Under the pieces are notes generated by a model. The model was not told where the DNA came from. It made no database searches and was given only the letters and a program-made list of their open reading frames with translations. Both the position numbers and the translations under genes were made by a program. A stretch of DNA of 47,885 nucleotides from an uncultured Alphaproteobacteria bacterium. GTDB lineage: Bacteria; Pseudomonadota; Alphaproteobacteria; MPNO01; UBA830. Positions 7,703 through 16,565 of this stretch are shown in pieces. Position 1 is the stretch's first letter. Each line of letters opens with the position of its first letter. The stretch covers positions 1 to 47,885 of the forward strand of contig CAJWUK010000005.1 of NCBI GenBank assembly GCA_913047365.1. Direction: 5' to 3'.

Positions 7703-7789
<87 letters not shown>

Positions 7790-14187: not shown

Positions 14188-15204
14188 ATGCCTGCCGCAC
14201 GTCCACCTGCGCCGCTGAAAGCGGTTCGTCTCTGGCTTTATATCTGTTGCGGCTTCGTTTTCGCGATGGTCCTGCTGGGCGGGATCACACGCCTGACCGA
14301 GTCCGGCCTTTCCATCGTTGACTGGCGACCGGTAACGGGTTGGTTGCCGCCGATGGGCGATGCCGCCTGGGCCACACTGTTTGACGCCTATCGGGAGTCA
14401 CCGGAATTCCGGAAACTCAATTTCTGGATGGGCATTGAAGATTTCAAACGCATCTTCTGGCTTGAATACCTGCACCGGTTGTTAGGACGCATACTCGGCA
14501 TCGTCTATCTGCTGCCGTTTATCTGGTTCGCAATCCGCTACCGCCTTCCGGAAGGGTTGTGGAAACGCCTGGCCATCCTTTTCGTTCTAGGCGGCACACA
14601 AGGGGCACTGGGCTGGTATATGGTCAAATCTGGCCTAGTTGACGAACCTTCGGTCAGCCAGTACCGGCTGGCCGCACACTTGGGTCTTGCCGTCCTGATA
14701 TACGGCATGATGCTTTATACCGCCTTGGCAATTCGGCCGGAGGGGCGGCCGGGAGGCATTTCTCGAGGTCTGGCACGTAATCTTACGGTGCTGATCTTCT
14801 TGACCATGATCTGGGGCGCGTTCGTATCCGGTCTCGACGGCGGAGGCGTGTTTAACACCTTCCCACTGATGGATGGCCGCCTTATCCCACCCGGCGCGTT
14901 GTCGATGTCGCCGGTGTGGCTGAACTTGTTCGAGAACATAGAAACCGTGCAGTTCCTTCACCGCATTCTCGCCGTGACGACCTTACTGGCCGTGCTGGCG
15001 ATCTGGTGGCGTTACCGGGCATCTGGATCAACTGTCTTGAACCTCATGGCAGTCATGGCAATTGTACAATTTTGCCTCGGCATCGCTACGATCCTGACGG
15101 GTGCGGAAATATATATCGCCTGGGCGCATCAGGGGGGGGGCATGGTCCTATTCAGCATGGCCGTCTGGATATGGCAAAAAACTGCGAAAAAACAGGGCAC
15201 TTGA
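14188..15204 (+). CDS. ctaA: Heme A synthase
   Basis: A 338-residue polytopic membrane protein. It oxidises the C8 methyl group of heme O to give heme A for aa3-type cytochrome oxidases. Visible motifs are GGITRLTESGLSIVDWRPV at helix 1, LEYLHRLLGR with the first conserved histidine, YRLAAHLGLA, QFLHRILA and WAHQGGG, so the histidines expected to bind heme are present. About eight helices are seen, and length is standard for the alphaproteobacterial (COX15-like) group. The ATG at 14188 is chosen because homologous sequence starts shortly after it; a longer frame to 14059 adds an Arg-rich segment with no family pattern. The metZ promoter overlaps its stop codon. Confidence 0.94.
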   Translation: MPAARPPAPLKAVRLWLYICCGFVFAMVLLGGITRLTESGLSIVDWRPVTGWLPPMGDAAWATLFDAYRESPEFRKLNFWMGIEDFKRIFWLEYLHRLLGRILGIVYLLPFIWFAIRYRLPEGLWKRLAILFVLGGTQGALGWYMVKSGLVDEPSVSQYRLAAHLGLAVLIYGMMLYTALAIRPEGRPGGISRGLARNLTVLIFLTMIWGAFVSGLDGGGVFNTFPLMDGRLIPPGALSMSPVWLNLFENIETVQFLHRILAVTTLLAVLAIWWRYRASGSTVLNLMAVMAIVQFCLGIATILTGAEIYIAWAHQGGGMVLFSMAVWIWQKTAKKQGT

Positions 15205-15230
15205 CGCGGTCCCTGACAAAGTCGTATCAC
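15201..15230 (+). promoter_or_regulatory. Likely metZ promoter
   Basis: TTGACG (15201-15206) and TATCAC (15225-15230) are 18 bases apart. The predicted start, near 15237, is just before the SAM-II element. The -35 box overlaps the ctaA stop codon. Confidence 0.5.
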
Positions 15231-15240
15231 TCGCTCCCTC

Positions 15241-15301
15241 TCGTGGTGATTTGAGCCGACCGGCTTGCGGCCACGTAAAAAAACAACGCTAAAAGGTCGG
15301 G
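15241..15301 (+). promoter_or_regulatory. SAM-II riboswitch aptamer
   Basis: The conserved SAM-II (metA motif) sequence is visible. CGTGG (15242-15246) pairs with CCACG (15271-15275), with GATTTGAGCC and GGCTTGC between them. CCGACC in the loop (15256-15261) pairs with GGTCGG (15295-15300) to close the H-type pseudoknot, and CGCTAAAAGG gives the conserved CTAAA before that strand. The class binds S-adenosylmethionine and is typical of alphaproteobacterial methionine genes. It sits upstream of metZ, as expected. Confidence 0.95.
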
Positions 15302-15314
15302 AGGTTCCTTAAAG

Positions 15315-15340
15315 CCCCGGCCCATCGGTCGGGGGTTTTT
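15315..15340 (+). terminator. Attenuator terminator in the metZ leader
   Basis: CCCCGGCC (15315-15322) pairs with GGTCGGGG (15327-15334) around CATC, an 8-bp stem with one G-U pair, followed by G and TTTTT (15336-15340). It lies between the SAM-II aptamer and metZ, where it would end transcription early. Confidence 0.85.
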
Positions 15341-15368
15341 ATTTGGGGCAAAACCTCGGGAGCAGAAT

Positions 15369-16565
15369 ATGGCAATCAACAAACCCATTCGGGATAGCTG
15401 GCGCGCGCAGACACTGGCGGTGCGGGGCGGTACGCGACGCAGCGAATTCGGTGAAACCGGCGAAGCAATCTTCGCGACCTCGGGCTATGTATACGAGTGC
15501 GCCGAACAGGCGGAAGACGCTTTCAGGGATCGCGTCGACCGGTTCATATATTCCCGGTTCTCTAACCCGACCGTCGATATGTTCCAGGACCGCATGGCTA
15601 TGATGGAAGGCGCCGACATGGGCAAGGCAACCGCCACCGGGATGGCGGCTGTGTTCGCTTCCATGGCCTCCATGGTCGAAGCCGGTGATCGTGTGGTCGG
15701 CAGCCGGGCCCTGTTCGGATCATGTCTCTATATTCTGACCGAAATTCTGCCCAAATACGGCGTAGAAACCACCATCGTCGACGGCACCGATCAGAACCAG
15801 TGGGAAGATGCGCTGAAGCGTCCCACCAAGTGCGTATTTGTGGAAACGCCGTCGAACCCCGGTCTCGACATTATCGATATCCAGACAGTGTCAGATCTCG
15901 CCCATAAGGCGGGGGCGAAGGTGATCGTCGACAATGTGTTCGCGACGCCGCTGTTACAGCACCCGCTGGAACTGGGGGCTGACATCGTTGTTTATTCCGC
16001 AACCAAACATATTGACGGCCAAGGACGCGCGTTGGGCGGCATAGTGCTGGGCGACAAAGAATACTGCGAAAACACTTTGAAGCCCTTCCTGCGGCACACC
16101 GGCCCTTCACTGAGCCCGTTTAACGCCTGGATTATGCTGAAAGGCCTAGAGACGCTTGATCTGCGCATGCAGCGCCACTGCCGAAACGCGCGGCAGATCG
16201 CCGATTATCTGGAGGGCCGGGGTGATCTTGCCAAGGTTCGCTATCCGGGACTGAAAAGCCATCCGCAGCACGAATTGGCGGCGACGCAAATGTCTGATTT
16301 CGGCAATGTCGTCACGTTTTCTCTGGCGGGGGGCAAGGAAAACGCCTTCCGGTTCATGAACGCAATGAAGATGATCGATATCTCCAATAATTTGGGCGAT
16401 TCCAAAAGTCTGCTGACACACCCGGCGACCACGACCCATCAGCGACTCAGCGCGGAAGACCGCGAGAGCCTGGGGCTGGACGACGGCATGGTGCGTCTGT
16501 CTGTAGGCCTGGAAGACCCGGAAGACGTCAAGGAAGATCTGGAACAGGCCCTGAGCGTGGTCTGA
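15369..16565 (+). CDS. metZ: O-succinylhomoserine sulfhydrylase
   Basis: A 398-residue PLP enzyme of the Cys/Met metabolism family. It makes homocysteine from O-succinylhomoserine and sulfide. The start DSWRAQTLAVRGGTRRSEFGETGEAIFATSGY is the MetZ signature, YSRFSNPT is near 58-65, and the cofactor lysine is K213 in YSATKHIDGQGR, where GQGR is typical of MetZ. The ATG at 15369 has CGGGAG at 15357-15362. Expression is controlled by the SAM-II element and terminator just upstream. apaG follows after 66 bases. With the metY-like gene at 2103, the window encodes two direct-sulfhydrylation enzymes. Confidence 0.96.
   Translation: MAINKPIRDSWRAQTLAVRGGTRRSEFGETGEAIFATSGYVYECAEQAEDAFRDRVDRFIYSRFSNPTVDMFQDRMAMMEGADMGKATATGMAAVFASMASMVEAGDRVVGSRALFGSCLYILTEILPKYGVETTIVDGTDQNQWEDALKRPTKCVFVETPSNPGLDIIDIQTVSDLAHKAGAKVIVDNVFATPLLQHPLELGADIVVYSATKHIDGQGRALGGIVLGDKEYCENTLKPFLRHTGPSLSPFNAWIMLKGLETLDLRMQRHCRNARQIADYLEGRGDLAKVRYPGLKSHPQHELAATQMSDFGNVVTFSLAGGKENAFRFMNAMKMIDISNNLGDSKSLLTHPATTTHQRLSAEDRESLGLDDGMVRLSVGLEDPEDVKEDLEQALSVV

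Follow-up and report, generated by a model that had tools for sequence, protein, structure and literature searches.

The question raised by this locus is how an RNA element in front of metZ controls that gene, and in particular whether it acts on transcription or on translation. The locus belongs to an uncultured alphaproteobacterium and lies in a stretch of 47,885 nt that was analysed as a whole (the window). The element scores above the Rfam gathering score for SAM_alpha, which is 36 bits. Its P1 and P2 helices have 6 bp each, and the conserved motifs GATTTG, CTTGC and GCTAAA are all present. Judged by covariance-model score, P1/P2 architecture and position upstream of a methionine gene, the segment 15233-15312 is a SAM-II riboswitch, and it would be expected to bind SAM. 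This is the single SAM-II match in the genome, which is incomplete, and no SAM-V partner was found in the window. The gene downstream scores 573.8 bits against TIGR01325 (cut-off 510.05), identifying it as metZ.

Upstream of the aptamer, the sequence pair TTGACG/TATCAC is likely a promoter, and its first hexamer overlaps the stop codon of ctaA. Every aptamer in the 14 printed alignment rows (the window and 13 relatives) is preceded by CTTGAC, and the position in the window agrees with the description of promoters upstream of SAM-II by Corbino et al. (PMC1273637). A strict σ70 scan of the window did not report a promoter at 15201-15230, as the last position of TATCAC is not a T. In the 3' part of ctaA there is a run of nine G residues (15132-15140) across which the frame is open, and this could be an assembly-sensitive spot. 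The window also carries a tRNA gene on the minus strand (7706-7789, 54.9 bits).

Table 1. Features of the metZ leader and its surroundings (window coordinates).
Feature	Position	Strand	Details and basis
ctaA (heme A synthase-like)	3' end 15204	+	ORF and protein family match
Candidate promoter	15201-15230	+	TTGACG 15201-15206, 18-nt spacer, TATCAC 15225-15230; by sequence
SAM-II aptamer (SAM_alpha, RF00521)	15233-15312	+	Rfam, 66.9 bits, E 5.5e-13
P1 5' strand CGTGGT	15242-15247	+	Partner GCCACG 15270-15275; Rfam alignment and sequence
P2 pseudoknot 5' strand CCGACC	15256-15261	+	Sequence
SAM-site core GCTAAA, conserved	15288-15293	+	Sequence and Rfam alignment
P2 3' strand / predicted antiterminator 5' strand GGTCGGG	15295-15301	+	Sequence, nascent fold, background control
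Intrinsic terminator	15315-15344	+	CCCCGGCC-CATC-GGTCGGGG (15315-15334) + TTTTTATTT (15336-15344)
Predicted antiterminator 3' strand CCCGGCC, part of terminator 5' arm	15316-15322	+	Nascent fold, background control
metZ ribosome-binding site GGGAG	15358-15362	+	6 nt before ATG, 3' of terminator; by sequence
metZ, O-succinylhomoserine sulfhydrylase, regulated gene	15369-16565	+	398 aa; TIGR01325 and ORF

An intrinsic terminator stands between the aptamer and metZ. Its hairpin was recovered independently by a pattern scan, with 8 pairs and the tail GTTTTTATTT. The G-rich strand GGTCGGG, which closes the pseudoknot, is repeated at 15327-15333 in the terminator 3' arm, and the copy in the aptamer can pair either with CCGACC in P2 or with CCCGGCC in the terminator. 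Taken as a plain duplex, P2 has a helix energy of -9.5, compared to -12.2 for the antiterminator and -18.4 for the terminator. The second copy of the G-rich strand also gives the P2 5' strand a possible partner in the terminator 3' arm (-14.6), so that four strands compete. The sequence-only reading had described one 7-mer shared by three competing pairings; its coordinates for CCGACC, CCCGGCC, both copies of GGTCGGG and the T tract from 15336 are all exact, as is its antiterminator of 7 bp with one G-U. The competition that it proposed is real and the match to the terminator arm is not random, but the number of strands was set too low. In the predicted folds the antiterminator excludes both the bound aptamer and the terminator, sharing 15295-15301 with the former and 15316-15322 with the latter.

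A second way for the element to work would be through translation, either in addition or as its main action. The sequence GGAGG at 15300-15304 overlaps the end of P2, and SAM could hide it as a ribosome-loading site that serves the remote start of metZ; distant Shine-Dalgarno use is reported for S. meliloti metA (PMC9373788). However, there is no start codon 5-12 nt 3' of 15304, a separate GGGAG for metZ lies beyond the terminator, and a canonical terminator with its U tract separates GGAGG from the gene. We therefore consider control through GGAGG very unlikely, chiefly for want of a nearby start codon.

For attenuation, the order in which the strands emerge matters. In nascent-chain folding, the antiterminator hairpin (15295-15301 with 15316-15322) is the minimum-energy structure for transcripts with 3' ends at 15322-15330, and the terminator takes over from a 3' end at 15334 (-39.1 kcal/mol). 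Blocking the P2 3' strand, which mimics the SAM-bound state, abolishes the antiterminator while the terminator stays. With the full leader at equilibrium and no ligand, the minimum-energy structure is the terminator regardless; the predicted switch is therefore kinetic, with the choice made during transcription. A rival, nested partner for the P2 3' strand, CCGGCTT (15260-15266), also appears in the minimum-energy fold, and this pairing would leave termination possible. Combining the nested antiterminator with the pairing of the P2 5' strand and the terminator 3' arm gave no better energy than the terminator at equilibrium. As the energy model handles neither the pseudoknot nor SAM, these folds serve as a consistency check and not as proof.

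To gauge how far a GC-rich arm would match by chance, alphaproteobacterial DNA totalling 0.97 Mb (119 loci and the window itself, with SAM-II regions left out) served as background and yielded 219 terminator-like hairpins with comparable scores. With its own terminator 5' arm, the P2 3' strand region forms a duplex of -13.9 kcal/mol, compared to a mean of -5.8 kcal/mol (sd 2.4) with the background 5' arms, none of which (0/219) pairs as well. GGTCGGG itself occurs in the 3' arm of 1/219 background terminators.

The same arrangement was then sought in homologues. SAM-II was found in 25/27 genomes of the same order and in 198/386 sampled genomes of the class (Alphaproteobacteria), and the survey comprised 266 distinct SAM-II loci, 206 of which are followed by a metZ-like gene. 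One locus (L191), whose contig likewise measures 47,885 nt, was checked as a possible copy of the window DNA, and this was rejected. A terminator-like hairpin (score of at least 26) is present at 217/266 loci, compared to 15/266 dinucleotide-shuffled stretches, and it starts no more than 60 nt from the GCTAAA core in 209/211 loci. Where arms could be assigned, GGYCGG occurs in the terminator 3' arm of 119/205 SAM-II loci and of 6/219 background hairpins. In nascent folds, the terminator 5' arm pairs with 4 nt or more of the P2 3' strand in 182/198 loci (92%), and this falls to 39% when background terminators are substituted. The arm pairs no better than a typical background arm in 21/198 loci. 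The sequence-only reading had itself proposed homologues as a test of the switch, and in them terminators, GGYCGG and nascent pairing all recur.

Exchanging terminators among SAM-II loci is a poor folding control, because the arms are common to the whole family: about 78% still pair after the exchange. Native terminators nevertheless have better energies than swapped ones (permutation z -7.4, uncorrected for relatedness). All four strands are retained in L004 and L005, which are among the nearest relatives, as is L002, where the terminator is shorter. In L003, from a genome of the same family, metZ is still preceded by the aptamer and the C-rich strand (about 1501-1650), and no recognisable terminator was found there. 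L164 and L189 keep the second GGTCGGG and the hairpin without a U tract, and possibly use a different expression platform.

Several relatives carry elements that fall below the Rfam cut-offs. In four genomes of the same order, L006 (positions 1501-1684; G005), L149 (G019), L281 (G016) and L283 (G013) match SAM_alpha at 28-34 bits, below the cut-off of 36, and differ in the sequence of P1. A sub-threshold SAM-V match (28-35 bits, cut-off 41) lies about 35 nt downstream in L006, L149 and L283, and about 500 nt downstream in L281. These have the appearance of SAM-II/SAM-V tandems that have diverged. The SAM-II-like element of this diverged type also precedes an O-acetylhomoserine sulfhydrylase-like gene in L007 and L150 and a MetH-like gene in L008 (translations assessed by eye).

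Pairing between the antiterminator arms was also followed across the homologues. Position 3 of the P2 3' strand and its antiterminator partner form 51 T-A, 30 C-G and 26 T-G combinations, the incompatible C-A occurring in 2/109; at position 2 the counts are 84 G-C, 17 G-T and 14 A-T, with A-C in 0/115. Choosing the register by best pairing biases such counts, so for the counts given here and for the tree test the register was set without the tested position. On the MetZ tree, about 1.4 of 4 and 2.9 of 3 contrasts go in the expected direction and almost none are opposed, numbers too few for significance, with about 5 informative independent antiterminator contrasts. The established P2 helix, used as a positive control, itself gives only 6 independent contrasts (4.7 in the same direction), indicating that the test lacks power. 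Tree-corrected covariation of the antiterminator is thus consistent with the switch, though not conclusive. A terminator that is constitutive and uncoupled from the aptamer, with the repeated 7-mer a mere GC-rich similarity, would fit the ligand-free minimum of the full leader, the lack of significance of tree-corrected covariation taken alone and the frequent GC-richness of alphaproteobacterial terminators, but it is very unlikely given the absence of any background terminator that equals the window arm in pairing with the P2 3' strand, the enrichment of GGYCGG in SAM-II terminators and the near absence of incompatible combinations.

Taken together, the terminator, the nascent folds and the homologues support action on transcription, as the sequence-only reading had suggested. 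Very probably, the locus is a SAM-II riboswitch of the standard kind, and metZ is repressed through attenuation of its transcription. Sequence and computation show the component parts, the competing pairings with their non-random match, and the recurrence of both among homologues, while SAM binding, the kinetic outcome and termination itself are inferred. RNA polymerase would start a few nucleotides 3' of 15230 and then make the aptamer. With SAM bound, P2 (15256-15261 with 15295-15300) would hold the G-rich strand and leave the terminator 5' arm free; the hairpin at 15315-15334 and the U tract would then form, releasing a transcript of ~105 nt. Without SAM, P2 would be unstable, and the G-rich strand would capture 15316-15322 as it emerges, delaying the terminator so that polymerase reads into metZ.

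The four-strand design might hold for all SAM-II switches that act on transcription; the terminator 3' arm would then be a copy of the P2 3' strand, either C-rich strand could pair with either G-rich strand, the ligand would decide between these pairings, and the SAM-free P2 5' strand could also capture the terminator 3' arm. We regard this generalisation as doubtful. An explicit four-strand description was not found in the literature searched, which took in PMC9373788 in part and excluded its Figure S1, a model for S. meliloti metZ.

The switch in the window is an ordinary representative of a class already known, and its arrangement is common to most of that class and not specific to the locus. 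The survey shows this generality: a terminator-like hairpin is present at about 80% of the alphaproteobacterial SAM-II loci sampled, and in most of them the terminator is able to pair with the P2 3' strand. The locus is a clean example of SAM-II transcription control that leaves knowledge of the class unchanged. Since the best-studied SAM-II RNA is translational, transcriptional loci could serve as compact templates in studies of cotranscriptional folding.

Terminators near SAM-II were noted in 2005 (Corbino et al., PMC1273637), and in alpha- and beta-proteobacteria SAM-II is most often associated with a terminator (Barrick & Breaker 2007, PMC2258182). The premise of the sequence-only reading, that many SAM-II riboswitches act on translation, reverses that published survey. 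The alphaproteobacterial met-gene elements in these two papers share with the window the aptamer sequence, the pseudoknot, a methionine-biosynthesis target, a promoter just before P1 and a terminator between P2 and the gene; with no difference of substance, the window is a further instance. In Sinorhizobium meliloti, Scheuer et al. 2022 (PMC9373788) predicted transcription attenuation for the same gene, metZ, by a SAM-induced terminator, and detected a leader RNA of ~100 nt (RZ), the length expected, that is more abundant at high SAM, with RNA stabilisation contributing to its abundance. That system differs in species, and many rhizobial terminators in our survey have longer arms than that of the window. 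In SAM-II/SAM-V tandems (reviewed in PMC9481103), SAM-II always precedes an intrinsic terminator, as in the window, whereas the window has SAM-II alone. The metX SAM-II from the Sargasso Sea metagenome (2QWY; PMC10907184) has the same aptamer fold, but hides a ribosome-binding site in P2, where the P2 of the window is linked to a terminator.
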